Below are positions 271 through 35,152 of a stretch of DNA of 35,888 bases, in pieces. The notes under the pieces were generated by a model. That model ran no database searches and had not been told where the DNA came from. It saw nothing but the letters and a program-made list of their open reading frames with translations. The translations under genes and the position numbers were made by a program. Location: positions 1 through 35,888 of the IMG/VR virus record IMGVR_UViG_3300044712_002228, one strand, 5' to 3'. Each line of letters opens with the position of its first letter. Positions within the stretch are counted from its first letter, which is position 1. The stretch is from a virus.

Positions 271-471
271 ATGAAGAAAACTATAACTTTATCCTGTATC
301 TTTCTTATTTTGCTCATTTGTAAAGGATGTGAGATCAATGAGTATAAATGTACCTCTGACTCACCAAATAGAGTCGGAGCACGCTGTAAAGATGGCACTA
401 GAAGCAATTCTGTGGGCTCAGGAACCTGTTCGAACCACAATGGAGTTGACTACTGGATATGTAGAGACTAA
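271..471 (+). CDS. Small secreted/lipoprotein with DUF3761-like Cys-rich domain
   Basis: The 66-residue product starts with a clear export signal (MKKTITL, then a hydrophobic run to ICKGC), and Cys20 could be lipidated. The mature part has a patterned set of cysteines (ARCKDGT ... GTCSNHNGV ... WIC) that resembles the DUF3761 type of small exported domain. It is transcribed opposite to the methylase gene and their ends overlap by 4 bases, so the two are convergent. Its position at the phage edge, orientation against all neighbours and lack of a structural role suggest a cargo (moron) gene expressed from the prophage. Its function is unknown. Confidence 0.6.
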   Translation: MKKTITLSCIFLILLICKGCEINEYKCTSDSPNRVGARCKDGTRSNSVGSGTCSNHNGVDYWICRD

Positions 472-1265
472 TAATTATGTGTCAGCACCTCAGTTTTTAC
501 CTTTTGATTGCCACTCCTGGCTGCAACTGACACTTTAGAACTAAAATCCTTTGTATGCCAGCCAAAGTCCTTTGTATACTGCTTCAAAACATCAGATGGA
601 TACGAGCTTAGTATAAACTTGCCTTTAATCACTGAAAGCAGCCCCAATAAGGCCTCAAAGTCATCCTTACTGTATCCATCATAATGTCCCATATCAGAAT
701 TAAAATACGGCGGATCCACGTAAAAAAACGAGGCATCTGTATCGCGGCTCCTTATCACATATAAAGCATCAGCACATTCTATCTGGACCTGCTGCAGTCT
801 TATCGCAAGATCCAGGGTAAAAGCCTCGCGCTTATTATCAATCTTCTTAGGTGTTGAATTCTTCGTTTTATCATAACCCCAACTGCTGTCCAATTGCCCG
901 GCAAAGCCCTGAGCGGATAGAACCCAGAGTGCCCAGGCTCGCTTTATTTCAGAAAACATATCCGGGTTGTTATAAATAACCGAAGCCTTACGATGCAGAT
1001 CCCTGCTGTGTAAAGTGATTTTAATCTCCTTTTCAAGGCTAATAAAATCACTTTGCACAACTTTATAAAAGTTAATCAGCTCCCTGTTTGTATCATTAAG
1101 GATCTCGATCTCGCTTGGCTTCTTCGCAAAAAATATGGCTGCTCCTCCGGCAAAAGGCTCACAGTAAAGATTATGATCTGGTATCATCGGCAGTATATGC
1201 CTAGCCATTAATTGTTTGCCACCATAATAGGTGATTGGTGTTTTTAGATTTAGAATTTCGCTCAT
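468..1265 (-). CDS. D12-class (Dam-type) N6-adenine DNA methyltransferase
   Basis: The product is 265 residues, the usual size for D12-class enzymes, which transfer a methyl group from S-adenosylmethionine to adenine N6. Visible motifs are YYGGK at residues 13-17, the SAM-binding EPFAGGAA at 36-43 and catalytic DPPYF at 184-188. No restriction endonuclease is adjacent, so it is probably an orphan methylase. It is the last leftward phage gene, separated from the late operon by a long hairpin and a possible promoter of its own. This is the place where Mu carries its Mom modification gene, so protection from host restriction is a reasonable guess. The recognition sequence cannot be read from the protein. 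Confidence 0.9.
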   Translation of the reverse strand: MSEILNLKTPITYYGGKQLMARHILPMIPDHNLYCEPFAGGAAIFFAKKPSEIEILNDTNRELINFYKVVQSDFISLEKEIKITLHSRDLHRKASVIYNNPDMFSEIKRAWALWVLSAQGFAGQLDSSWGYDKTKNSTPKKIDNKREAFTLDLAIRLQQVQIECADALYVIRSRDTDASFFYVDPPYFNSDMGHYDGYSKDDFEALLGLLSVIKGKFILSSYPSDVLKQYTKDFGWHTKDFSSKVSVAARSGNQKVKTEVLTHNY

Positions 1266-2196: not shown

Positions 2197-3030
2197 CTAT
2201 TCAGATAAATACAAAACCCAAAAGTCATTACACCATTCCTCTTTCAGAATGTATTCCCAAGGCATATGCCCGGTCCCGTCAATCCCCCAATCTTTACCCC
2301 AGCTATTCAGGATGAAAACCCCCAATTCAGTATAATCCATTATCACCATACAATGCCCGCCGACGAACGGATCGCACTTGCTTGGGTAAGGGACAATACC
2401 CGTCTTCTTCACCCAGTCGCTTTCAAAACTTGCAAAGAGATCCGCGCCGAACACAATTGGAAAGCCCTGGTATATCACGTCCATTATTGCTTCCTTGGTA
2501 ACCGGATAGATCCTCTCATACCTGATCGACTGATGCTCCAAACCTTCCATAAACGCTTCCTGGGATGGCAGCTCCTTGAACCTTTTCACATCATAAGGCC
2601 AAGTCTGTTCCTTACATATACCATAAAGATTCATTGCCTTAAAGGCATCCCTGATCTGCCCCCCGCAGTCTCTGTTCTTGTCCACCCGGAGGGTCCAGTA
2701 GGCAAATAAAGGGGAAGGATCCCAATCCGGCTGGCCATTCACCTGCAGTACCCTCCTGAAGGCTTCAATGGCACCAAATGCACAGCAGCTTCCAAGATTG
2801 CCCTGGTCATACCTGTGTGTGAACTCATCGATGTTCTTTCGCTGAGTGTCAACCGGTAGATCCTGCGGCATTCTCCTAGTCTTGTAGATAAAGTCACGGT
2901 CATCCTTCTCATCACGCTTGTAACCATAGCGGCGATCGGCAACCTTCTTCCGTAGCAGGTCCTTCTTAACCCACTTCCATATTTTCCATAGGGTAATCAC
3001 ATTTACCTTTATAACAGGTTTCCATTTCAT
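2197..3030 (-). CDS. Papain-type (C1) cysteine peptidase
   Basis: The 277-residue protein carries all the papain-family landmarks: DQGNLGSCCAFG at about 75-86 (oxyanion Gln76, catalytic Cys82), GGHCMVIMDY at 224-233 (catalytic His226), and LNSWGKDWG at 241-249 (catalytic Asn242). The family cleaves peptide bonds. Here the enzyme sits among lysis-like genes, so a role in breaking envelope cross-links or proteins during release is inferred, not shown. No classical signal peptide is present; the N-terminus is basic and aromatic. The start codon overlaps the stop of the preceding gene in an ATGA junction (3030-3027), indicating translational coupling. Confidence 0.85.
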   Translation of the reverse strand: MKWKPVIKVNVITLWKIWKWVKKDLLRKKVADRRYGYKRDEKDDRDFIYKTRRMPQDLPVDTQRKNIDEFTHRYDQGNLGSCCAFGAIEAFRRVLQVNGQPDWDPSPLFAYWTLRVDKNRDCGGQIRDAFKAMNLYGICKEQTWPYDVKRFKELPSQEAFMEGLEHQSIRYERIYPVTKEAIMDVIYQGFPIVFGADLFASFESDWVKKTGIVPYPSKCDPFVGGHCMVIMDYTELGVFILNSWGKDWGIDGTGHMPWEYILKEEWCNDFWVLYLSE

Positions 3031-3440
3031 AGTATGTGGAGTTTAAATTTGTCTGGCAGTATCTCAAGCAGCTTCTTCATCTCATAGCTCGAATTTGCTA
3101 TGTCTATATAACCATCCTGGTTAACATCAGTAAAATATGTTCCGGGAAGGATGCAGCCCTTAGTATCCGGGTGGTCACCATTAATATAATTTCCCACGTG
3201 GATCTCGATGCCTTCCCTTCCGGAGACATCCAGGAGTAGAAACACTTGCTTGCCATTTTCCTTGGTGATCTTGATCACATCATAAATACCTTCCAGTATA
3301 CAGGAGACTTCCCTTAAATTGTCTTTAAAAGGCAGTTCAATCACTTTGCATTCATACAGCAAGGCATCTCCATCAAGGATCAGAAATGCGCCCTTCGTTT
3401 CAGTAGGATTGTACAGCCTCGATATTACTGCCTTAATCAT
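3027..3440 (-). CDS. DUF5675-like protein (lysis region)
   Basis: The 137-residue protein has a C-terminal half with the pattern HVGN ... DTKGCILPG, typical of DUF5675 proteins, which are common in phages of Bacteroidota. The His and Cys spacing recalls the catalytic part of L,D-transpeptidase folds, suggesting action on peptidoglycan, but no activity is established. It is coupled to both neighbours by ATGA overlaps (3440-3437 and 3030-3027), so it is made with the exported protein and the papain-type peptidase. Confidence 0.65.
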   Translation of the reverse strand: MIKAVISRLYNPTETKGAFLILDGDALLYECKVIELPFKDNLREVSCILEGIYDVIKITKENGKQVFLLLDVSGREGIEIHVGNYINGDHPDTKGCILPGTYFTDVNQDGYIDIANSSYEMKKLLEILPDKFKLHIL

Positions 3441-3946
3441 CTGAACCTCCTGCGCTTCACGTCAAACTCTTTTATCGGCATTGCAATTCCAACCATCAGG
3501 CTGAATCCCCGGCCCATAAGAAATCCATCCGGAGGGGCCATCTTTTGAAGACCTTTATCCCAGAATGAGGTATTACCTATGTAGGTAACCGGCAGATCCC
3601 TGGTAAGGTTATATGACGGATCGAACAGTGCTATCCTAAGGAAGGTATAACTTGCCAGGTAGTAGCCCCATTTACTCCTTTCGTAATCAATCACAAATGG
3701 CGTAGCCAGAAGCACCCCGGTGCTGGCTGCGTTGCAAACGTGCCCCCAGGTCTTTACTCCATCATCGTTAAGGCCGTCACCAACGGCATCCAGAATGATG
3801 GATCCTGCGAACATCGTTATCACCTTCACCGACTCTGGTATCTTCGATTGCTTAAATGGTTTCTTATACTTAAAGCAGTCCTCGAGGTACTGTGCATCGG
3901 CCTGAATGGCTATCAGGACCAGAAGAAGAACAATCATTCTTTTCAT
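3437..3946 (-). CDS. Exported membrane protein, unknown
   Basis: This 169-residue protein starts with a strong signal peptide, with predicted cleavage after QADA (about residue 18). The mature part has a Cys-containing stretch followed by two or three moderately hydrophobic segments (around MFAGSIILDAV and TGVLLATPFVI). I do not recognise the family with confidence. Its place between a coiled-coil membrane protein and the DUF5675 gene suggests a part in the lysis cassette, for example at the outer membrane. Confidence 0.6.
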   Translation of the reverse strand: MKRMIVLLLVLIAIQADAQYLEDCFKYKKPFKQSKIPESVKVITMFAGSIILDAVGDGLNDDGVKTWGHVCNAASTGVLLATPFVIDYERSKWGYYLASYTFLRIALFDPSYNLTRDLPVTYIGNTSFWDKGLQKMAPPDGFLMGRGFSLMVGIAMPIKEFDVKRRRFR

Positions 3947-3947
3947 T

Positions 3948-4283
3948 TCAAATCAGTTTTATTGTTGTTTCAAAACCTAACCAGGCTACCAGGGCAACAA
4001 CTCCGGAGAGGAGCAGAACAGTGATGATAATTGCCGACTTCGGGTTTTTATGCGCCCACCTGAATACGAATGTTTCCTTCTCAAGCTTGTTAACCCTGCC
4101 GTTAGTAATATCCTGCTTATCCTTTATTTCCTTGTGCTGTGCCGCGTTTCTCTCTTCAAATTGTCCCAACTGTTCGCTGAAGCCTCTCACGCTCGCCTCA
4201 AACAGCGATCTGTAAGCATCAAAGGCAACCTGGTGGCTGTTACTAATGGCATCTAATAATTCCTGCTTGTCTTTCGGATCCAT
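3948..4283 (-). CDS. Coiled-coil protein with C-terminal membrane anchor (holin/XhlA-like)
   Basis: The 111-residue protein has a polar, helical N-terminal two thirds with Glu/Lys-rich segments suited to a coiled coil. A single membrane segment (IIITVLLLSGVVALVAWLG) lies near the C-terminus. This layout resembles XhlA-type accessory lysis proteins and T-holin partners, but there is no decisive motif. It starts in a TAATG overlap with the sigma factor stop (4285-4281), so the two are co-translated. Confidence 0.6.
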   Translation of the reverse strand: MDPKDKQELLDAISNSHQVAFDAYRSLFEASVRGFSEQLGQFEERNAAQHKEIKDKQDITNGRVNKLEKETFVFRWAHKNPKSAIIITVLLLSGVVALVAWLGFETTIKLI

Positions 4284-4843
4284 TATGCAATATTTTTAAG
4301 TTCAACAAATTCCAATTCTTTGATGTATTCTCTGATTTTAGAAGCTCCGCGGCTCACCTGGCTCTTTACAGTACCTATGTTCATTTCAAGGTCCTTGGAT
4401 ATCTCTTCATAATTCATCTGCTCTTCAAAATGTAACCTCACATACATATACATTCCCGGGCTGTTTTTCTGAAGCATTCTCATTGCGCTCCGATACAGAT
4501 CGCTTGCTGCCATAGCATCAAAGCAGCTGCCTATCTTGACCTGCATCGGCTCATAGCCGTCAATGTCCGCGCCTCTGTGTTTCTTTTCCCTTTGATAATG
4601 CGTAAGTGAAGCGTTATGAACTATTTTCCACAGCCAGCCTTTAAATGAGTTCTCCGGATCAAACTTGTCTATGCCCGACAGGATCTTCAAAAAACACTCC
4701 TGAACCACATCCTCGGCTTCCATTTCGCTCTTAACCACCTTGGCTGCAACTCTTATCATATGGTTACGATACCTTTTGTTAAATGCCTCCAGAGCCTTCC
4801 TGTCGCGGGCCTTCAATCCTTCTATGATCTTTTCCTCTTTCAT
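4283..4843 (-). CDS. ECF-type RNA polymerase sigma factor
   Basis: I chose the ATG at 4843 because it forms an ATGA junction with the preceding stop; this gives 186 residues, the normal size for a group 4 sigma factor. Residues about 18-90 match sigma region 2 (EDVVQECFLKIL, then FKGWLWKIVHNASLTHYQR), and about 120-175 match region 4 with its helix-turn-helix (MNYEEISKDLEMNIGTVKSQ). Such proteins direct core RNA polymerase to specific promoters. No anti-sigma factor is adjacent. Lying inside the late operon, it could switch on the genes to its left (lysis, methylase), feed back on late promoters, or redirect host transcription. Confidence 0.88.
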   Translation of the reverse strand: MKEEKIIEGLKARDRKALEAFNKRYRNHMIRVAAKVVKSEMEAEDVVQECFLKILSGIDKFDPENSFKGWLWKIVHNASLTHYQREKKHRGADIDGYEPMQVKIGSCFDAMAASDLYRSAMRMLQKNSPGMYMYVRLHFEEQMNYEEISKDLEMNIGTVKSQVSRGASKIREYIKELEFVELKNIA

Positions 4844-5727
4844 CGTCTTGGTATTGGATTGGGTGGTGGAGTTATCCATAGATAATTGCCAATGGCAATT
4901 AAGCTGGTAGTCCACTCTGAGCTGCCTTGTATTCTTGCCCGAATTCTGAATATAATTGCATCACCGGTCGGAGAATATATTCCATTAATGGTTACATAAG
5001 CAATTGCAAAATCGTCTATGTTACCTGAACTCTGCGATCCCGAACTCAAAACACTTAGATCCAAATTGTTAATAACCTGCCATTCTATTGTCTGGCTGCC
5101 TGAATAACCGGCATTAGAAACCCTAACACGGCACTCAACTGGCGTGCCCGGCCAGAATACGTCACTGCCCGGCAGAACAGCTGTTACGCTCAGGTTAACC
5201 GGCAGCACGTATGATACGGAGCTATATATCCAAGCGGCCTGAACCGGTCCTTTTAATCTTACTCTTAATTCCTTGTATGTTGCCGGAGCAGTAATGCCTG
5301 TAACCGTAACAGATCCTGATGAACGCCATTTAATGTTCCCTGTATTTACTGTTCCGCTATTAAGAATGTTATCCGACGAGTCAAGAATTTCCCAGGTAAG
5401 GGTATTGGATCCTTCTCCGCCGGTATTCAAAAAATCAACAGTGAAGCTCATTAGCGACGACGGTCTGTAATTCAACGACCCGAACGACGCTGAAATGACA
5501 TTAATTACACACGGTGTCCAGATCTCGATCACTCTGAACACCCTCTCATTAACCTGCGTCATCCCGAAGTTCCTGGGGTTCTGATGAGCTGCAGTAATTA
5601 ATCGCTGGCTCAAATATGCTAAACTGAAATCCCTCGGAAGTATCCTGTCTATTTCAAATATCCGTGGGCTTCCGCTCATAATCTCAAATTCTTTCTGGTT
5701 ACTATGTGTTGCAACGAACTGCAGCAT
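4840..5727 (-). CDS. Virion-associated protein with two Ig/CARDB-like repeats
   Basis: The 295-residue protein has two similar beta-rich units. One centres on VDFLNTGGEGSNTLTWEI and the other on VRVSNAGYSGSQTIEWQV; each is followed by a matching SSGS/NTG-GNI segment. This is the pattern of CARDB/Ig-like adhesion modules. It lies at the end of the tail fibre cluster, directly before the sigma factor, and is probably a distal tail or host-contact protein. The first 90 residues resemble no family I know. Confidence 0.6.
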   Translation of the reverse strand: MLQFVATHSNQKEFEIMSGSPRIFEIDRILPRDFSLAYLSQRLITAAHQNPRNFGMTQVNERVFRVIEIWTPCVINVISASFGSLNYRPSSLMSFTVDFLNTGGEGSNTLTWEILDSSDNILNSGTVNTGNIKWRSSGSVTVTGITAPATYKELRVRLKGPVQAAWIYSSVSYVLPVNLSVTAVLPGSDVFWPGTPVECRVRVSNAGYSGSQTIEWQVINNLDLSVLSSGSQSSGNIDDFAIAYVTINGIYSPTGDAIIFRIRARIQGSSEWTTSLIAIGNYLWITPPPNPIPRR

Positions 5728-5729
5728 CG

Positions 5730-6077
5730 TTAAGAAGTCTGATCAGTCTTCACATAGATCTTGCCCTGCATAATTGTATATACATCAGTGCCTGAGGTCA
5801 GCTGGACGTCATATTTGAAGGTCCCGGCCTCATCAAATGCAGTGGTTTTGATGTTGAACGTGGCAGTGCTGATGGTAATGGCAGGCGACACCCCCGCACT
5901 CGATAAGGTCTTCACAACCGTCCCGTCAGGCTTCTTAACCTTCATATCAAGCTGCTTGCCGGTAAGGTCATATGAGGCAGCGTTCAGATCCACGCTGAAC
6001 GACATATCAGGCGTATCACCCTTTATCAATATTATGTCTACCGTTGCCGGTTTTACGTTGTAAACTGTTGTGCTCAT
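5730..6077 (-). CDS. Small beta-rich tail/baseplate protein (BppU-like N-terminal fold?)
   Basis: The 115-residue protein is almost entirely beta-type, with the pattern IKGDTPDMSFSVDL ... DLTGKQLDMKVKKPDG ... GTFKYDVQL ... MQGKIYV. This matches the compact Ig-like domain seen at the start of baseplate upper proteins such as BppU and in many small phage tail proteins. It is packed between other fibre-region genes with gaps of two bases. It is probably a structural attachment domain. Confidence 0.6.
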   Translation of the reverse strand: MSTTVYNVKPATVDIILIKGDTPDMSFSVDLNAASYDLTGKQLDMKVKKPDGTVVKTLSSAGVSPAITISTATFNIKTTAFDEAGTFKYDVQLTSGTDVYTIMQGKIYVKTDQTS

Positions 6078-8997: not shown

Positions 8998-11024
8998 ACC
9001 AAGTTTATTGTAACATCCTCCGGTTTAACCTCCAGCCACTGGCCGTTTATGCTCCTGTCAAAATCATCATACTTGCCACCCGAAAAAATCAACTTTGCCG
9101 ATCCCAGGAAGTCAGTATCCTGTATAGTATGCAAAAAGCACGGACCACCATTATCGCCGTACAGATTGTCAGCTCTTACGGTCCCCATCAAGGTTGCAAG
9201 TGAATCCTGGTATTGACTGGTTATCGATCTGATGAGATGATGCACCAACTTGTAATCTGTTGAATCCCCAGGTTTCCTCCATTGAGAGGTAGCTGCTCCG
9301 TCAAGCTTAAATATTGCCCCCCTGTCAACGTGGCTTACCGCATCAGCGTGTTCCAGAGTAATGCCCGGAGCCTCATTCTCAAATGCATCATCCAGCACTC
9401 CATCATACTTGGGATCCTCAGTCTCAATCGGTACCATATTCTGAACTGTCGACTCATCTTTGTAGCACTTACAGGCAAAATCTTTTAGCCTTGTGCATAT
9501 CATCCCATCACCGGAGTCAAGCACATTGTCTGCAGAATCATAAACATCCGGATGCCATACTTTTAATACAGATGTTCCAGCTGGCATTCCTGTTTTTTCA
9601 ACATATAATGTAAAGGATACCCATTTGTCTGAAAGTGAATCTTCTCCTGGCTCTTTATATATGTAAACCCCTAAGGGCAAAACAGAGGTACCATAAACCC
9701 ATCCCCAGCTGCCGCCCGAATAAACATACCTGTAACCGGCAATTTCAAGCGTTATCGGAAGCACAATTTTAGCTGAGGGTACACTTGCCTCCTCAATATC
9801 GTACTCATTATATCTTGTCCTTATATATATCTCTCCTGAAATAGCAAGGAACTTATCAGTAACAGGTGCCACGTGATATCCGGGTATCGATAACAGTAAA
9901 TTCCCACTTCCCCATACTTGTCTTTCCAGGTAAATCTCTTCAGTAGCCTTATCTGCTCCCTGCCTGTGACCAGTAGTTATCATAAAGGCATCTTCGAATG
10001 TTATCCCCTCAATGGTCCTGCCTGCTGGCACAAGCCTGTAAACACCATATGCATCCGCGCTCCAGGTCTCACTAACTACTGACCATTTCTTCTTATCAGC
10101 AACGTTTATTTCCGGTATGGCTCCCTCCCTCGAATATTTCGAGAACCTTATTTTCTGCCTGTTATACCCGCTCTTCGTATCATATATCTGGTCCTCATTG
10201 TCCCAGTTTATGTCACCGTTGCTTATGTCAAAATTTTTGCTTATTGTCGAAGTGCCGATATAGGCGTATGTGGTACCGTTGAATTTCTTTGCACTAAAGC
10301 TTGCTGCAGCAAGCATCTGCGGTTCGTAAATGAATATCGACCCAAACTCCTGGCGGATCTGTAACCCATCACAAGCTGTTAGGATTGCTTCAAGTACACC
10401 CCTGTAAGTCTTCGGCTCATCCTGTTCATCGTAGTAATTGTTCTGATCGGCCTGCAGATAATGAAATATCGTCTTATCGGCATCAACCGTAACACCGGTT
10501 ATCGAAAGGTTCGAAGCAAAGTATATGTACTGGTATGGCAAACCGGTTTTGCCAAGGATCCTGGTGAGTATGTTCCAGAAAGTCTCAAGGCTGGTATACT
10601 TGCTCGTTCCGTCCAGGTATTTGAATCTTCTGAGTATGTTAAAACCATCATTGCAGTTTATTACAACCGGGTAGTCTGCGCTCCTGCTGTAGGGTTCGCC
10701 ATATTGCTCGGTATTAATGAAGCCAAGCCACCAGGCATTTGCATTATTGTTCTTGAAGATCTTCACCATCCTCTTCACCGGATCCTTCGTGTACAGTCCT
10801 CTGAACTGGCCATCGCTTTCCGACCACAGCTGAACCGTGGCACCCTTGCCTATTACCGGAGTAAATATTGTTGGATCCATTGGAGCAGTTTCAACCTCCA
10901 GTGGCTTTTCAGTAGTCTTGCAGTTGGTGTTGGACCCGGCAAAACCTTCTTCCCAGAACTCGATCTTCGAATCAACTCCTGCCCGGTCCTTCCATTCAAT
11001 AGTATGACTTTTGGCGTAGGCCAC
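8994..11024 (-). CDS. Tail tip/baseplate hub protein
   Basis: The 676-residue protein starts at GTG 11024, directly after the TAA of the tape measure gene (TAAGTG). Gene order (tape measure, this protein, fibres) places it as the distal tail or hub component of a siphovirus. It is beta-rich, with many aromatic residues in the first 200 positions (WWLGFINTEQYGEPYS). No hydrolase motif was found. Sequence similarity to named hub families is not visible by eye, so the role rests on order and size. Confidence 0.65.
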   Translation of the reverse strand: MAYAKSHTIEWKDRAGVDSKIEFWEEGFAGSNTNCKTTEKPLEVETAPMDPTIFTPVIGKGATVQLWSESDGQFRGLYTKDPVKRMVKIFKNNNANAWWLGFINTEQYGEPYSRSADYPVVINCNDGFNILRRFKYLDGTSKYTSLETFWNILTRILGKTGLPYQYIYFASNLSITGVTVDADKTIFHYLQADQNNYYDEQDEPKTYRGVLEAILTACDGLQIRQEFGSIFIYEPQMLAAASFSAKKFNGTTYAYIGTSTISKNFDISNGDINWDNEDQIYDTKSGYNRQKIRFSKYSREGAIPEINVADKKKWSVVSETWSADAYGVYRLVPAGRTIEGITFEDAFMITTGHRQGADKATEEIYLERQVWGSGNLLLSIPGYHVAPVTDKFLAISGEIYIRTRYNEYDIEEASVPSAKIVLPITLEIAGYRYVYSGGSWGWVYGTSVLPLGVYIYKEPGEDSLSDKWVSFTLYVEKTGMPAGTSVLKVWHPDVYDSADNVLDSGDGMICTRLKDFACKCYKDESTVQNMVPIETEDPKYDGVLDDAFENEAPGITLEHADAVSHVDRGAIFKLDGAATSQWRKPGDSTDYKLVHHLIRSITSQYQDSLATLMGTVRADNLYGDNGGPCFLHTIQDTDFLGSAKLIFSGGKYDDFDRSINGQWLEVKPEDVTINLV

Positions 11025-15112: not shown

Positions 15113-16192
15113 TTATTTCCACTCCTGTCCCCAGTATGCCTTATAAAGGGCTTTAAACCTTGGCAGATCAGAAGCCTTCATCTCGTTCAGCTCTTCCCTC
15201 GAAAAGTCATTCCACGACTTTTCCTCTTTCGTTTCACCCTTCTCTATCTTTGCCAGGGTAGCATCAACCTTGGCGATTACATGGCTAAGGCGTGTGTTGT
15301 CACCCTGTTCAACAGGCTTAACAACCAGGTCAACAAGCAGATTCAGATCGGTGGCTCCGAGCTTCGTCATACTTGCAACGTTCGCGTCAGTTATAGTGCC
15401 GTTCTTGCGACCGACAGCTATGACCGAATCGACCAGCGACTTCCTCTCATTTGCAAGAGCGGTCTCCTTCTGATCAATTGCGGCGATGATTGCGTCCTCT
15501 GCACTGGCTTCGGGCAATCCGAGTTTTGCTGCAATTTTCTTCATATCAATATTTGAGTTTAAAAAATCCTTGTTTCCTTCCTGCACTCTGCCTTCTTCAG
15601 AAGCAAACGCTACCAGCTTCTCAACCGATAGCTCCGCAGCATTGGCTGCCACACCCGTATCGATGATCTCATCAACGAAACCTTCCTTCAGGGCATCCTG
15701 GGCATTATACCAGCTGTCAGTCTTCAGTATCTTAGAGATATCATCCTGGCTTTTGCCCCTCCTCGACAGCAGATCCGTCAGCATCCCTGTCATATGCTTT
15801 ATCGATGCCTTATCCTCCTTGCTCAGGTTGGTTGCCGCATTGCCTTTCTCATCCTGCATATATGGTGCGTGCAGCATTATCCTGGCAAAATCATTCATCT
15901 TCACTTTCTTGCAGCTGAGTGCTATCACCCCTGCCATACTGCCTGCAACACCTTCAACAATCGCTACCGTCTTGGCTGGCGAAGCTACAATTGCCCCAAT
16001 AATGGATAGACCCTGAATCACGCTGCCTCCAAGTGAATTAATTCTGAAAGTGATCAGATCCGCACTTTTCCCCAGGTAGTTTATCTCTGATGCCAGGTAA
16101 TCCCCATTTACCTTCTCACCAATATTGCCGTATATCTCAACCACGGCTTCCTTCACATCCCTGGCAACGATCTTTGAATACTTGATTTCCAT
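15113..16192 (-). CDS. ClpP-like prohead protease with C-terminal scaffold
   Basis: In this 359-residue protein, residues 1 to about 190 are a ClpP/S49-type serine protease: INSLGGSVIQGL at 51-62, catalytic Ser85 in GVAGSMAGV and catalytic His108 in IMLHAPYM. The remaining 170 residues are charged and helical (KKIAAKLGLPEASAEDAI; VIAKVDATLAKIEKGETKEE) and fit a fused scaffold that is removed during head maturation, as in Mu gpI. An internal Met (MKKIAAK, about residue 216) could give a separate scaffold, like Mu gpZ. It is the first gene of the leftward late operon. Confidence 0.87.
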   Translation of the reverse strand: MEIKYSKIVARDVKEAVVEIYGNIGEKVNGDYLASEINYLGKSADLITFRINSLGGSVIQGLSIIGAIVASPAKTVAIVEGVAGSMAGVIALSCKKVKMNDFARIMLHAPYMQDEKGNAATNLSKEDKASIKHMTGMLTDLLSRRGKSQDDISKILKTDSWYNAQDALKEGFVDEIIDTGVAANAAELSVEKLVAFASEEGRVQEGNKDFLNSNIDMKKIAAKLGLPEASAEDAIIAAIDQKETALANERKSLVDSVIAVGRKNGTITDANVASMTKLGATDLNLLVDLVVKPVEQGDNTRLSHVIAKVDATLAKIEKGETKEEKSWNDFSREELNEMKASDLPRFKALYKAYWGQEWK

Positions 16193-16394
16193 TTACACGG
16201 CTTTACTTTTTAGTCATTTGGGTTTGCCCTGCGCTCTAAGCTCTCTGCTCTACGCTTTTAAAGCCACCAAAATCACTCCTAAATTCCATCCTGTCAAATA
16301 ATAGTGCAGTCCTCGCAGTTTTTAGTTCCATTCATACACTAATAATTGCCCTGGTTAACCTTTCAACATACCTTTCCATCATTGAAAACCGCTT
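16193..16394. promoter_or_regulatory. Divergent late intergenic region
   Basis: These 202 bases separate the leftward capsid/tail operon from the rightward terminase operon, so both late promoters should lie here. No perfect TAnnTTTG box is visible; the nearest is a leftward TATTATTTG (one base too long) close to 16294-16302. A pyrimidine-rich stretch with repeated GCTCT words occurs at 16232-16255. The lack of standard boxes suggests the promoters need a phage activator or sigma factor. Confidence 0.4.
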
Positions 16395-24528: not shown

Positions 24529-24732
24529 TTATGAGATCCCGTTCACCTGGGCTACCAGGGCTCTCTTTAGGTATTTGTTATTTTTTGCCTTGTTGGCAAG
24601 GTCTATGTTGCGGTAATTACATAGGTGAGAACCGACGTTCGTATTCGAGTTATCGTAGTCGTAATTCGAATCGTCGAACCTGAAACCGGACGACAGAACT
24701 GACAGCTCCTGCAACATACAACCCCGGATCAT
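24529..24732 (-). CDS. Short ORF spanning the template repeat (coding status doubtful)
   Basis: A 67-codon frame starts in a TAATG overlap with the stop of the second target gene and runs through the TR in the same frame as the target proteins (LSSGFRFDD ... VGSHLC). It then ends in a basic stretch (NNKYLKRALVAQVNG) 10 bases before the RT gene. It may simply reflect that the TR arose from a target gene copy; most TRs are not translated. If it is translated, the RT would be reached by coupled translation. Confidence 0.3.
   Translation of the reverse strand: MIRGCMLQELSVLSSGFRFDDSNYDYDNSNTNVGSHLCNYRNIDLANKAKNNKYLKRALVAQVNGIS
24620..24696 (-). repeat. DGR template repeat (TR), 77 bp
   Basis: On the coding strand it matches VR1 (24814-24890) and VR2 (25226-25302) without gaps. 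The TR has 18 adenines on this strand. VR1 differs at 9 of them plus one T, and VR2 differs at 12 and nowhere else. Adenine-rich codons such as AAT, AAC, GAC and TAC occur at the variable positions, the usual TR design. The 3' end (reading GTCGGTTCTC) is invariant and would be the initiation site. TR and RT lie in the same orientation. Confidence 0.93.
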
Positions 24733-25139
24733 TATTCTGAATAAAGAAGATACTCCTGGTATAACTCCTCAAACTGCTTGGCTATGTACAATGCCTTCTC
24801 CTTCGAATCGGTGCAAAGGCGAGAACCGACGCTCGCACTCGAGTAATCGTAGCCGTAATTCGAACCGTCGACCCCGAAACCGGACGACAGAACCCAGAAA
24901 CACGGGTAATATTTCCACTGATTAATATTGCTCCAGTCAGGCTTCCAGGCATTATTAATGGCAAGAAAAATAATGACTAGCTTGTAATAAGCAATCATTG
25001 GTTTAATTGCTTCAATGTGTACAGCCTTTATTTCAGGCACAACAGGATCAATGCCAATTCTTTTACAGGCATCTTCAAAGGTTTTGATCGATTCATAATC
25101 AAACTCTTCAGTCTTTTGTTTAGCGATCTTTTCGGTCAT
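24732..25139 (-). CDS. DGR target protein 2
   Basis: The 135-residue protein is paralogous to the product at 25144-25602. Shared parts are IKTFEDAC and IDP near the start; AIN-x2-W-x-PDW-x-N-x-NQ, a KYYP/KWYP element and LSSGFG before the variable region; VGSRLC at its end; then a helical tail with KQF-x2-LY. The variable segment is about residues 84-109. The VGSRLC end recalls the VGFR-type end of C-type lectin fold DGR targets, so a ligand-binding surface is likely, but the rest of such a domain is short or absent. No signal peptide or membrane segment is present. Confidence 0.85.
   Translation of the reverse strand: MTEKIAKQKTEEFDYESIKTFEDACKRIGIDPVVPEIKAVHIEAIKPMIAYYKLVIIFLAINNAWKPDWSNINQWKYYPCFWVLSSGFGVDGSNYGYDYSSASVGSRLCTDSKEKALYIAKQFEELYQEYLLYSE
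24814..24890 (-). repeat. Variable repeat VR1
   Basis: Aligned without gaps to the TR, it has ten substitutions. Nine are at TR adenines (coding strand) and one is T to G (TTC to GTC, Phe to Val). Residue changes relative to the TR frame are mostly Asn, Asp, Arg or Thr to Gly, Tyr, Ser or Ala. Both flanks share bases with VR2. Confidence 0.92.
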
Positions 25140-25143
25140 AATG

Positions 25144-25602
25144 TTACTTTTTTATGGTTAGGAACTCTTCATATAGACTCAGAAACTGCTTCCCTGCATA
25201 ACTTGATTTTTCTTCCGATTCAAAGCAAAGGCGAGAACCGACGCGCGCATCCGAGAAATCGCAGTCGTAATCCGAATCGCCGAACCCGAAACCGGACGAC
25301 AGTTTAAACCAGGGATACCATTTACGCTGGTTCGTATTATCCCAGTCCGGCTCCCATCCCTGGTTAATGGCCTTAACAATGATCTTTAGTCTCTTGTAAG
25401 CTATCTCATCTAGGGTATCGACGTCGCAACAAACAGCATCCGGATCTATGTCCAGTGCCTCACAGGCGTCCTCGAAGGTTTTTATGTCCTTATACGTAAT
25501 TGTTCTGAAGCTGTCTTTCCCGAAAGCTGCTTCAAATTTTGTCTTCATCTCGGCTGATGCAGTCGGATAAAGATTCTTGGCTTCTTTTAATGTTAATTCC
25601 AT
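25144..25602 (-). CDS. DGR target protein 1
   Basis: This 152-residue protein is the first gene of the DGR block. Its N-terminal 30 residues (ELTLKEAKNLYPTASAEMK) are absent from its paralogue. It continues with IKTFEDACEALDIDPDA, AINQGWEPDWDNTNQRKWYPWF, the variable part (about residues 101-126) and the tail EEKSSYAGKQFLSLYEEFL. The variable part sits before a conserved C-terminal helix rather than at the very end. The gene lies four bases upstream of the second target gene. Its ligand and location are unknown; lack of a signal suggests a cytoplasmic protein or one packaged with the virion. Confidence 0.87.
   Translation of the reverse strand: MELTLKEAKNLYPTASAEMKTKFEAAFGKDSFRTITYKDIKTFEDACEALDIDPDAVCCDVDTLDEIAYKRLKIIVKAINQGWEPDWDNTNQRKWYPWFKLSSGFGFGDSDYDCDFSDARVGSRLCFESEEKSSYAGKQFLSLYEEFLTIKK
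25226..25302 (-). repeat. Variable repeat VR2
   Basis: It aligns without gaps to the 77-bp TR. All 12 substitutions fall on TR adenines of the coding strand (mostly A to G, some A to T and A to C); all non-adenine positions are identical. It produces changes such as Asn to Asp, Phe or Arg and Tyr to Cys relative to the TR frame. Confidence 0.94.
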
Positions 25603-28010: not shown

Positions 28011-28153
28011 CGTGCTAATTGGTTAATGAATAATACGCTGATCGTCGTGAAACTTATCACGGCGAGACCGGCTGCAGCAAAGATCCCTGCAATGAACAGC
28101 GCCGGGTGTATGTTAATGGTCCTGCCATCGGGCAGATAACACGTTACTTTCAT
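28007..28153 (-). CDS. Small single-membrane-segment protein (48 residues)
   Basis: This short gene starts at ATG 28153, overlapping the stop of the DnaA-like gene in an ATGA junction (28153-28150), and its own TGA overlaps the glucosaminidase start in the same way (28010-28007). The product begins MKVTCYLPDG and contains one hydrophobic helix (ALFIAGIFAAAGLAVISFT). The two perfect junctions make it very likely real. It could be a holin-like partner of the downstream hydrolase. Confidence 0.7.
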   Translation of the reverse strand: MKVTCYLPDGRTINIHPALFIAGIFAAAGLAVISFTTISVLFINQLAR

Positions 28154-28581
28154 AGAATTATCAGTGATGATGAGTAAAAGATGTTCTGGTAAAAATCAAG
28201 CTCGCCGCTCTGTTTAATTTCAGCATCAACGAGCTTTGCCTGCTCTTCCAGGTGTAGTCTGAACCTATGTGTCGAAACCAGGTTGTAAGCCTTATAAATG
28301 ATCGGAGTTACTTTTTTCCTGAACTGCTTGTCGATCTCCAGGAATGTCTCCACCTGGGTAAGATCTCTCCAGGGCGATGCGTGGCTTTTGTAATTGAGTC
28401 TTTCTGCAATGCTCTGAAAGCTCACCTTGGTGTTTTTAAGAATTACATAGCTCGCCACTTGGCGCGCCTCGCATAATTCGTGCTTGCGGCACTTCGATTT
28501 AACCAGTTCAAGTGGCTGCCCAAGCTCCGCGCATACAAGTTCAATGAGTAATTCTTCTATTTCTTTCCTGATGGTTGCCAT
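28150..28581 (-). CDS. DnaA domain IV-like DNA-binding protein
   Basis: The central part of this 143-residue protein follows the C-terminal DNA-binding domain of DnaA: LVKSKCRKHELCEARQVASY, then VSFQSIAERLNYKSHASPWRDLTQVE, the counterpart of the DnaA signature with its H-x-S element. The AAA+ domain is absent. DnaA domain IV recognises DnaA boxes; a stand-alone copy may tether phage DNA, regulate early genes or interfere with host initiation. It lies in the replication/transposition half of the operon. Confidence 0.72.
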   Translation of the reverse strand: MATIRKEIEELLIELVCAELGQPLELVKSKCRKHELCEARQVASYVILKNTKVSFQSIAERLNYKSHASPWRDLTQVETFLEIDKQFRKKVTPIIYKAYNLVSTHRFRLHLEEQAKLVDAEIKQSGELDFYQNIFYSSSLIIL

Positions 28582-30658: not shown

Positions 30659-31280
30659 TAGTATTAAAACCCCAATATTTAATAGATCCTTCCGGGTATA
30701 TGTCATAGTATTTCTCCTTGCTTCCGCCATAACGGCTCTGGCAGAATGCCCTGAAACCTTCAACCCTTATCTTCACATTTGCATCGTACCTTATTGCGTT
30801 GGCTGTCCTGCCATCCGGATACTTGCCTGCAGCGTGCGATGTGAAAATGAATAACTTTTGAGGATGCCTGTTAATGAGATCCTTGGCAGTGAGCTTGTTT
30901 AACCCGGAGTACTGAACCGAATCAATTATGACGATCCGGGGGCTCTTATGCCTGGAGAGTCTTTCCTCCAGGTCCCCGATCGGCTCCTTGTCCAGGATTA
31001 TGAATCTGCCCTGTGTTTCAACCATATTCTCTCTTTTTATTGCATCCCGGAGGCTTTTGGAGATTCCCTCCTCAAGCGAGTTAAATGCTACTCTTTCCCA
31101 TTGGCAGAGGTATTTTGCGAGCTGGAGGACGAAAGCGGTCTTCCCGTTCGCGCTTTCGCCCCATACTATCCAACATCCCTTAACTTCAGGACTCCCTATC
31201 AGCTCCTGCCATATGCCGTCAAATGGCAGTTCAATAAACCTCGAATTAAGTACCTGAAGTGATGTTGCAGCTCGCCTCAC
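30645..31280 (-). CDS. RecA/DnaB-like P-loop ATPase
   Basis: The 211-residue protein has Walker A GESANGKT at 41-48 and Walker B RIVIIDS at 115-121. Between them FNSLEEG and related elements match the RecA-fold core. Its size is that of small RAD55/RecA-like phage ATPases used in replication or recombination. It follows MuB directly, so it may help replicative transposition by remodelling DNA or loading host proteins. Its start overlaps the stop of the MuB-type gene by one base. Confidence 0.75.
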   Translation of the reverse strand: MRRAATSLQVLNSRFIELPFDGIWQELIGSPEVKGCWIVWGESANGKTAFVLQLAKYLCQWERVAFNSLEEGISKSLRDAIKRENMVETQGRFIILDKEPIGDLEERLSRHKSPRIVIIDSVQYSGLNKLTAKDLINRHPQKLFIFTSHAAGKYPDGRTANAIRYDANVKIRVEGFRAFCQSRYGGSKEKYYDIYPEGSIKYWGFNTNDND

Positions 31281-32152
31281 TATGCCCTCCTCTGCTTGTT
31301 AACTTCTATTTGAATTCTTCTCAAACTGATTTCTATCGACTTAGGGATCGCATTCAGGAGTTCCTCGGATGCACCGTTTGCCTTGGCGATAAGTACGGCC
31401 TGCATAACGTGGAATTCCTTTGCTGCTTCTTTCCCCTCCGGAGTGATCCTCTGGTATCTGCTGCCATACCTCGAGAACAACTCTGGGTATCCTACCTTCG
31501 ACTTGGCCCTGTTAGCCTCAAATTTCTTTCTGAGGCCATCAGCACCCATCATATACCATCCGCACGATCCTTCAGTGGCATTCCACAGAGCCTTCAACTC
31601 CAGGGTGGCTTCGTAACTGAGATCTCCTGCTTCATCAAGTATGATCAGAGGTCTTTCCAGGCTTCTCAGGTAGTACACCAGGTCCTGGTATATCTCCCTC
31701 AGTAATCCCGAGGCGGTTATCCCAAACTCCTTGGCAATTTGTATTAGGAGCATTCTCTTCGTCTTAGCCTGGCTGCAGTCAATGTAAACTGCATTCTTGT
31801 GCTCACGCACGTAGCATTTGGCTGAGTAAGTTTTGCCAAGGTCAGTCTTGTCGCAAAGCATTCCGCCCATTGAGTTCTGCTGGCAAAGTTCCAGCTGGCC
31901 GGTTACATAACTATACACAGGTGTCTTGGCTGTAACCCAGGGAGTGCTCTGCCCGATCGGCACCTCTAGCTTCCTGGCAATTGTAATCAGAGCAGCGTCA
32001 GATATCACTCCGTCAAACTCGCCTTTAATTATTCTCGAAAACTGCGCTGGCGATGTTCCCAGTGCAACCGCCATCTTTGAATCAGATGGATACTTTGAAC
32101 GCTGCTGTTTAATCGCGTCCAGGATTCTTTGTTTAAACTCTATTGTAGCCAT
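31280..32152 (-). CDS. MuB-type transposition target activator ATPase
   Basis: In this 290-residue protein an N-terminal HTH (KMAVALGTSPAQFSRIIKGE, about 26-45) precedes an AAA+ core with CDKTDLGKTY at 100-109 as P-loop and LIILDEAGDL at 169-178 as Walker B. The first Gly of the classical P-loop is replaced, which I believe is common in Bacteroidota MuB relatives. MuB binds target DNA, delivers it to the transposase and protects phage DNA from self-integration. It lies 24 bases downstream of the transposase gene. Confidence 0.87.
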   Translation of the reverse strand: MATIEFKQRILDAIKQQRSKYPSDSKMAVALGTSPAQFSRIIKGEFDGVISDAALITIARKLEVPIGQSTPWVTAKTPVYSYVTGQLELCQQNSMGGMLCDKTDLGKTYSAKCYVREHKNAVYIDCSQAKTKRMLLIQIAKEFGITASGLLREIYQDLVYYLRSLERPLIILDEAGDLSYEATLELKALWNATEGSCGWYMMGADGLRKKFEANRAKSKVGYPELFSRYGSRYQRITPEGKEAAKEFHVMQAVLIAKANGASEELLNAIPKSIEISLRRIQIEVNKQRRA

Positions 32153-34475: not shown

Positions 34476-34670
34476 TTAATTAAGTAGTCTCTGGAGTTTG
34501 TCAGCAGCTCTTCTTATTTCATTTACCAGGCAGGTATCCCGATCGGCATATTCTCCTAGCTTGTCATTGAGTACCATCCCTACATATTTAGGGCTGCAGG
34601 ATACCATTCTAGCTATCATAATACGGGACCCCCTGCCCAGGTCCTTGTAATTTTTTTTTGTTTTTCCCAT
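34476..34670 (-). CDS. Cro/Ner-like early regulator
   Basis: I prefer the ATG at 34670 (MGKTKKNYKDLG), which lies downstream of the predicted -7 box; the longer frame would start inside the operator. The 64-residue product has an HTH-like stretch (SRIMIARMVSCSPKYVGMVLND) and a helical end. As first gene of the early operon facing the repressor, it is probably the Cro/Ner counterpart that represses the early or repressor promoter. Confidence 0.65.
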   Translation of the reverse strand: MGKTKKNYKDLGRGSRIMIARMVSCSPKYVGMVLNDKLGEYADRDTCLVNEIRRAADKLQRLLN

Positions 34671-34686
34671 TCTAATTGCTTTAACT

Positions 34687-34717
34687 TTGTGCTTGCTTGT
34701 GGGAACAAATATATTAG
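34687..34717 (+). promoter_or_regulatory. Possible repressor promoter
   Basis: Rightward TTTG (34687-34690), 19 bases, TATATTAG (34710-34717), which matches TAnnTTTG at seven of eight positions. It overlaps the leftward early promoter, so the two would compete. Transcription would then cross both operators before the repressor start at 34769. Confidence 0.35.
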
Positions 34718-34737
34718 GATATTTCCTAATTACCAAA
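34706..34737 (-). promoter_or_regulatory. Early promoter
   Basis: Leftward TTTG (34737-34734), 20 bases, then a perfect TATATTTG (34713-34706), the Bacteroidota primary sigma consensus. The first codon of the Cro-like gene follows 36 bases downstream. The spacer contains operator O1 almost exactly, so bound repressor would exclude RNA polymerase. Confidence 0.65.
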
Positions 34738-34768: not shown

Positions 34769-35152
34769 ATGTTAACCAGAATTAAGGAGTATATTGATTA
34801 CAAAGGGATTTCTGTCTCTGCATTCGAAAAGAGCATAGGGATGTCAAATGCTTCATTTGGTAAATCTTTGAAAAACGGAGGTACTATAGGTGCAGATAAA
34901 ATAGAAATTATCCTAAATAGGTATCCTGATTTAAATGTATGCTGGTTGATAACCGGAAGTGGTCCGATGTTAAAGACTGGTGATGATTTAAATGAACCTC
35001 CATCTCTTTACAGCAATAAAATCATCGAAACTCAGAATGCAACAATTGAAACTCTTGGGAAATTGGTGAAACGACTTGAAGAGGAAATTGAAAGGTTGAA
35101 ATCAGAAAAAGAAAAGCCCGCTGAGAGCGGGCAAAAAAGAAAGGTCGGATAA
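34769..35152 (+). CDS. Phage repressor, HTH plus coiled coil
   Basis: The 127-residue protein has an N-terminal Xre-type HTH (VSAFEKSIGMSNASFGKSLKNGG, about 16-38) followed by the WLITGSGPML element common in Bacteroidota phage repressors. Residues about 88-118 form a predicted coiled coil (IIETQNATIETLGKLVKRLEEE) that would mediate dimerisation. There is no S24 self-cleavage domain, so induction by RecA-driven autocleavage is unlikely. It is divergent from the early operon and shares its operators. The last codons overlap a hairpin. Confidence 0.8.
   Translation: MLTRIKEYIDYKGISVSAFEKSIGMSNASFGKSLKNGGTIGADKIEIILNRYPDLNVCWLITGSGPMLKTGDDLNEPPSLYSNKIIETQNATIETLGKLVKRLEEEIERLKSEKEKPAESGQKRKVG
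35116..35132 (-). terminator. Terminator for incoming leftward transcription
   Basis: GCCCGCT (35116-35122), loop GAG, AGCGGGC (35126-35132). In the leftward direction it is followed by TTTTCTTTTTC, a proper T-tract; in the rightward direction by A's. It therefore stops transcripts coming from the right flank, although it lies inside the last codons of the repressor gene. Confidence 0.65.

Follow-up and report, generated by a model that had tools for sequence, protein, structure and literature searches.

A Mu-like phage of a Bacteroidota-type host carries an intact ECF-type sigma factor gene in its late operon, possibly as part of a lysis-associated module

The viral record IMGVR_UViG_3300044712_002228 (35,888 bases, 35.9 kb; analysed over its whole length and called the window below) encodes an ECF-type sigma-70 family factor close to the end of its leftward (late) operon. 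The gene is real, correctly named, intact and under selection, and it is accessory, because none was found in eight relatives of the same layout, five of which were followed as far as the terminal methyltransferase. New here is a second, different phage (G026; IMGVR_UViG_3300047194_000025, 34,167 bases), which by sequence comparison carries a 48%-identical sigma factor in the same gene neighbourhood. We tentatively read the product, at a probability of roughly 40%, as a functional, phage-adapted ECF sigma factor that would form an accessory part of a distal-tail/lysis module and boost or time the lysis end of the programme late in infection. Support for this role comes from the fold and domains, the module shared with G026, the codon pattern, the phylogenetic clade, the holin context of a related gene in prophage G149 and the absence from relatives. 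The existence of relatives without it weakens the case for a late-gene switch, and nothing found here shows such a role. Because this small Mu-like phage has an intact ECF sigma factor and its relatives can serve as natural controls without one, late-gene switching in Bacteroidota phages becomes testable.

The window is a Mu-like phage with a diversity-generating retroelement (DGR) and a host of Bacteroidota type. It contains MuA- and MuB-like genes, a terminal repressor-like gene and an early-to-late layout (Table 1). Read from the right end, the repressor-like gene is followed by MuA, MuB, small early genes, and a DGR region in which repeats accompany a reverse transcriptase (phrog_1423). 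Beyond the DGR, a rightward operon carries terminase, portal and minor head protein genes, and a leftward operon starting at 16192 carries protease, major head, tail, tape measure and fibre genes and ends at the terminal methyltransferase. Within the DGR (24529-24732 and 24732-25602), the short ORF at 24529-24732 resembles the template repeat. The targets are two tandem genes, both phrog_11581, with variable copies, in which mismatches in the first ~78 bases lie mostly at template adenines; they adjoin the reverse transcriptase and are not in a tail fibre gene.

Table 1. Features of the window discussed in the text (positions in the 35,888-base record).
Feature	Position	Strand	Basis or remark
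D12 adenine (Dam) methyltransferase	468-1265		Terminal gene of leftward operon
Papain-family (C1) cysteine peptidase, possible lysis enzyme	2197-3030	-
DUF5675 protein	3027-3440	-	DUF5675 ORF also after the coiled-coil gene in G026
169-aa protein, apparent signal peptide (our reading)	3437-3946	-	No family match
Coiled-coil protein, 111 aa, one C-terminal membrane helix, lysis-cassette type	3948-4283	-	TAATG coupled; relatives in G026 and G149; AlphaFold2
Sigma-70 family factor of ECF type with just regions 2 and 4 (186 aa)	4283-4843	-	Pfam, NCBIfam, AlphaFold2
Putative distal virion/tail-associated protein (from position)	4840-5727	-	ATGA junction; C-terminal part 58% identical in G026
phrog_1084 protein, upstream border of shared module	5730-6077	-	76% identical in G026
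Presumed late promoter region, a 202-nt gap separating the divergent terminase and protease operons	16193-16394	.	No TAnnTTTG box
Small protein with DnaA C-terminal HTH (Bac_DnaA_C), early operon	28150-28581	-	E=7.9e-11
MuB-like transposition protein	31280-32152	-	phrog_296
MuA-like transposase, defines phage type	32177-34156	-	phrog_310
Host-type promoter facing the repressor-like gene, TTTG-N21-TAACTTTG	34657-34689	+
Host-type early promoter TTTG-N20-TATATTTG	34706-34737	-
Repressor-like gene	34769-35152		Right end of window

The identity of the sigma factor is supported by domain and fold predictions alike. Sigma70_r2 (PF04542; E=3.3e-17, 62.5 bits against a cut-off of 24) and Sigma70_r4_2 (PF08281; E=1.6e-7, 31.3 bits against 25.7) both exceed their Pfam cut-offs, and the NCBIfam model sigma70-ECF (TIGR02937) scores 84.3 bits against a cut-off of 42.9; the score for TIGR02985 (Sig70_bacteroi1), 83.7 bits, lies under the curated cut-off of 126.4. 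An AlphaFold2 model (mean pLDDT 82) predicts two helical domains. Region 1.1 and region 3 are lacking and the linker is short and of low confidence (residues 91-110), which, together with the length of the protein, corresponds to the ECF architecture. The modelled region 2 superposes on that of E. coli sigmaE (4lup) at 1.5 Å (TM 0.89 by target), and the nearest solved structures are ECF sigma factors such as AlgU, SigW and sigmaE. The first-pass annotation, which had described an intact ECF sigma factor with both regions, was therefore right on this point. The gene lies on the minus strand, and the plus strand of the same stretch is broken by stops.

Coupling of the gene by ATGA and TAATG junctions inside the late operon, also claimed earlier, can be read directly in the sequence. 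Upstream, in 'acgATGAaa', the sigma start overlaps the stop of 4840-5727; downstream, in 'gcaTAATGg', the sigma stop overlaps the start of 3948-4283. A longer ORF with a GTG start reaches 4915, but translation more probably begins at the coupled ATG, position 4843. Cognate anti-sigma factors usually lie adjacent to ECF sigma genes, an arrangement that is common but not universal. As had been noted from the sequence, no adjacent anti-sigma factor is recognised, in that the neighbours match no anti-sigma family; this is not decisive, because adjacency is not universal. The only candidate nearby is the coiled-coil protein 3948-4283, which we rejected as a likely anti-sigma factor: its model has a long helix and a membrane helix and no bundle fold, and such a function is unlikely given that the lysis cassette of G149, a prophage lacking the sigma gene, contains a distant relative.

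Profile scans of viral_contigs with the sigma, coiled-coil and 5730-6077 proteins (two short patterns per scan, of limited reach) returned G026 alone, and its sigma factor is the one close homologue found. Between the two sigma genes, identity at codon positions 1, 2 and 3 is 0.62, 0.70 and 0.37, respectively, and 8 of 25 fourfold sites are identical. Positions 1 and 2 are thus kept and the third is near saturation, a pattern that, at the sequence level, indicates purifying selection. With a 48%-identical homologue and this codon-position pattern, the ORF is not a chance one. That the gene is missing from most relatives could be taken to mean that it is decaying or a passenger without function, but its open frame, intact domains and coding-type conservation against G026 make this most improbable.

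In a tree of 27 sigma factors, the window and G026 sequences form their own clade (support 100/99) on a long stem, which groups with cellular Bacteroidota ECF sigma factors, the nearest rows after G026, at moderate support (82/85) and lies away from the crAss-like sigma factor (one included). The window protein resembles these cellular factors (TIGR02937, near TIGR02985) in domain order, length and fold. It differs from them in its position under the TIGR02985 cut-off, in the lack of an adjacent anti-sigma factor, in its setting in a phage late operon, and in sequence: cellular matches are at most 34% identical among the matches listed from 395 Bacteroidota genomes (with up to eight candidates scored per genome). 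A scan of genome_contigs with the sigma factor gave eight loci at 20-28% identity, bar one at 36% over a short stretch. From these comparisons, the pair would represent a long-established phage lineage that arose from Bacteroidota ECF sigma factors and not a fresh host gene. One further apparent carrier, G043, was rejected: close to its contig end lies an ORF of 289 aa that, in our reading, encodes a primary sigma factor. This ORF (L091, 90-959), in a DGR phage record, appears to be a host rpoD-like gene, which suggests that the G043 phage integrated next to a host sigma gene.

Phage-encoded ECF-like sigma factors had been called unusual in the first-pass annotation. This stands insofar as a minority of phages carry any sigma factor: according to PMC9429907, 86.6% of 4,350 phage genomes are without one and <15% have one. 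ECF-like factors, however, are already known in several phages, including crAss-like ('sigma-W'), Rhizobium, Salinivibrio, Agrobacterium, Zobellviridae and other phages. The window sigma factor is likewise phage-encoded and two-domain, but it is at most 29.5% identical to these, among the 60 of 93 records listed. The count of 93 is itself inflated, because L107 and L108, out of three faecal records without annotation that were retrieved, resemble pieces of bacterial chromosome; hence, we rejected the use of all 'phages' matches as phage sigma precedents. In our reading, these two public 'Bacteriophage sp.' records (MT839839.1 and MT835682.1) encode Dus, LspA and RluD-like proteins and radical SAM enzymes. 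Genomic context also differs: the crAss-like cr124_1 sigma gene lies among hypothetical genes and a tmRNA, and that of PQ867839 between primase/helicase and DNA polymerase genes, and neither is beside annotated lysis genes. We found no description in the open-licence literature of this arrangement for an ECF sigma factor in Bacteroidota or hankyphage-type phages. The regulator identified for the hankyphage is its repressor, and a word search of the main text of PMC12135933 gave no occurrence of sigma.

The sigma gene shares its surroundings with G026. There, the homologues of 5730-6077 and 4840-5727 are followed by a 101-aa ORF, the sigma gene, the coiled-coil gene (61% identical, directly after sigma), the DUF5675 ORF, a further membrane ORF and a recombinase-like ORF, which in our reading encodes a tyrosine recombinase. 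The 101-aa ORF (9265-9570), which has a C-terminal hydrophobic stretch and lies directly upstream of the G026 sigma gene, is not present in the window. A search of G026 for a homologue of the window MuA gave no match at E 1e-4, so the same block occurs in two otherwise different phages. Co-inheritance of sigma with the module rests on these two phages, as a single homologue was found.

One end of this module may be of lysis-cassette type. The AlphaFold2 model of the 3948-4283 protein (three rows) shows one long helix and a membrane-length helix, an arrangement that we take to be like that of XhlA. A distant coiled-coil relative (E=3.6e-4) occurs in the sigma-less prophage G149, two ORFs before GTA_holin_3TM, and from this one weak match and its context we read 3948-4283 as a lysis-cassette protein. 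Peptidase-like, small coiled-coil and membrane ORFs are placed elsewhere in the relative G002, between the major head and tail genes; compared with that placement, the lysis module appears to have been moved or exchanged in the window.

The relatives comprise G002, which is 67%, 65% and 82% identical to the window in MuA, MuB and the terminal methyltransferase, respectively, and seven prophages from Bacteroidales genomes with 37-42% identity in MuA. A profile built from nine aligned ECF sigma factors detected the window and G026 and none of these eight same-layout relatives. Five of them (G002, G425, G333, G406 and G141) were read out to the methyltransferase; G298, G093 and G120 were covered over a stretch with no recognised phage end, so that a sigma gene further out is possible in these three. 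Among 48 IMG/VR records, 45 of them fetched via the DGR reverse transcriptase and three via MuA (many may be fragments), Sigma70_r2 matched in two, one of them G043, and was lacking in 46, and we rejected control of the DGR by the sigma factor for this reason. The sigma-less relatives must express the same late genes in some other way, and late genes are probably turned on mainly by another factor, one that they have in common with the window.

The stretch adjoining the terminal Dam methyltransferase, in which the sigma gene resides, is variable and filled differently in the relatives. This gene order would equally suit a host-directed role. The gene could be an accessory of moron type that switches on host genes (e.g., for envelope functions), whether during lysogeny or at a late stage of infection, as its variable location and the grouping of its clade with cellular Bacteroidota ECF sigma factors would allow; for sporulation sigmas of phages, action on host programmes has been documented (PMC9429907). 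Nonetheless, we consider this possible but unlikely, given that the gene is coupled on both sides within the late operon, is not immediately preceded by a separate host-type promoter and has no close cellular homologue among the matches listed.

Promoter comparisons bear on whether the sigma factor governs the late genes as a whole. The early control region of the window holds two boxes on opposite strands, both with a perfect -33 TTTG and with spacings of 20 and 21 nt, and a similar promoter pair is present in the early region of G002. The late divergent gap contains no TAnnTTTG box on either strand, as had been reported, but the second promoter class that the first-pass annotation held plausible for this reason does not follow: the box is also absent from the corresponding gaps of sigma-less G002, G333 and G406. 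Single boxes were found in G425 (3/4 -33 match, right direction), G141 (2/4) and G298 (3/4, pointing to the terminase), in regions delimited manually on tblastn matches (six relatives scored, all but G093 and G120) and against a chance expectation of 0.27 boxes per region. A missing box is thus no mark of a sigma-bearing phage, and the absence of the host promoter box should not be used as evidence for a sigma-dependent promoter class. A search for a shared non-standard promoter, which had been proposed as a check, was null both for ECF-like sites (2 upstream of ORFs in the window versus a shuffle mean of 2.6; 1 versus 2.3 in G026) and for dyads common to the window late gap and the G026 gaps (6, below the shuffle mean of 12.7). 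These scans use plain shuffles and single regions and are weak tests; they fail to support a sigma-dependent promoter class and do not exclude it, leaving it unproven. The late gap also holds a degenerate GAGC/CTCT-rich, microsatellite-like tract (16229-16260). Short direct or inverted repeats occur in the late divergent gaps of G406, G333 and G141 (e.g., TGCAAGTGTTGCAGTATA twice in G406) and could be activator sites in these sigma-less relatives.

The PBSX factor Xpf activates late genes. It is a sigma-like prophage factor of Bacillus subtilis whose loss reduces lysis (PMC4243946), and it offers a precedent for a sigma factor that would act as principal activator of all late genes, here from the divergent promoters at 16193-16394. 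The link with lysis would be a likeness to the window gene; the host phylum differs. A late gap without TAnnTTTG beside an early region with two boxes would agree with such a role. We regard it as improbable, since eight relatives of the same layout manage without the sigma factor (several of them also without the box), the gene lies deep inside the operon that it would have to start, and no shared motif for its promoters was found.

Phage Mu C and Mor are activators and not sigma factors, and a late sigma factor would fill the same functional slot in a Mu-like phage. No Mor family match was listed among the window proteins scanned with Pfam (part of the ORFs). A candidate late activator is the DnaA-C-type protein 28150-28581, at what is presumably the place where Mu keeps Mor/C. 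The sigma-less G002 has Bac_DnaA_C at the same place, after a ParB-like gene and in a longer protein (E=1.3e-16), and homologues occur in two further MuA relatives (L002 and L004). One rival reading takes this protein, as an analogue of Mor/C, for the real late activator and denies the sigma factor any role in transcribing the phage. Replication is another possible function of the DnaA-C domain, however, no binding motif common to the window and G002 late gaps was found, and the conservation of sigma would be left unexplained; we hold this reading to be quite improbable.

According to our preferred reading, the accessory role at the lysis end, the sigma factor would be made late and its translation coupled to that of the preceding gene and of the following coiled-coil, lysis-type gene. 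It would most likely bind host core RNA polymerase, and the holoenzyme would serve a few promoters during the late phase of infection, with phage targets expected in preference to host ones. The sigma factor would then act as a feed-forward factor, boosting or timing the lysis end of the programme. A more speculative extension, which we consider doubtful, is that the coupled ECF sigma and coiled-coil genes form an exchangeable 'sigma plus lysis' cassette. Its phage-specific holoenzyme would start the lysis end with a built-in delay, as a lysis clock without an anti-sigma factor, and the cassette would move between Mu-like and integrase-type Bacteroidota phages.

Two minor features precede the terminal Dam methyltransferase gene. 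A very stable hairpin at 1290-1385 (about -57 kcal/mol, 110 bases folded) had no Rfam match; a pattern search of viral_contigs found it in one of eight matches, G002, and not in the other seven. Its ends, CTCTCACAAAAACACAA ... TTTTGTGAGAG, recur in the G002 hairpin, of which the middle is different. On the minus strand at 1418-1425, just upstream of the methyltransferase, lies a TACGTTTG box with a 3/4 -33 match, and the methyltransferase may have a host-type promoter of its own.
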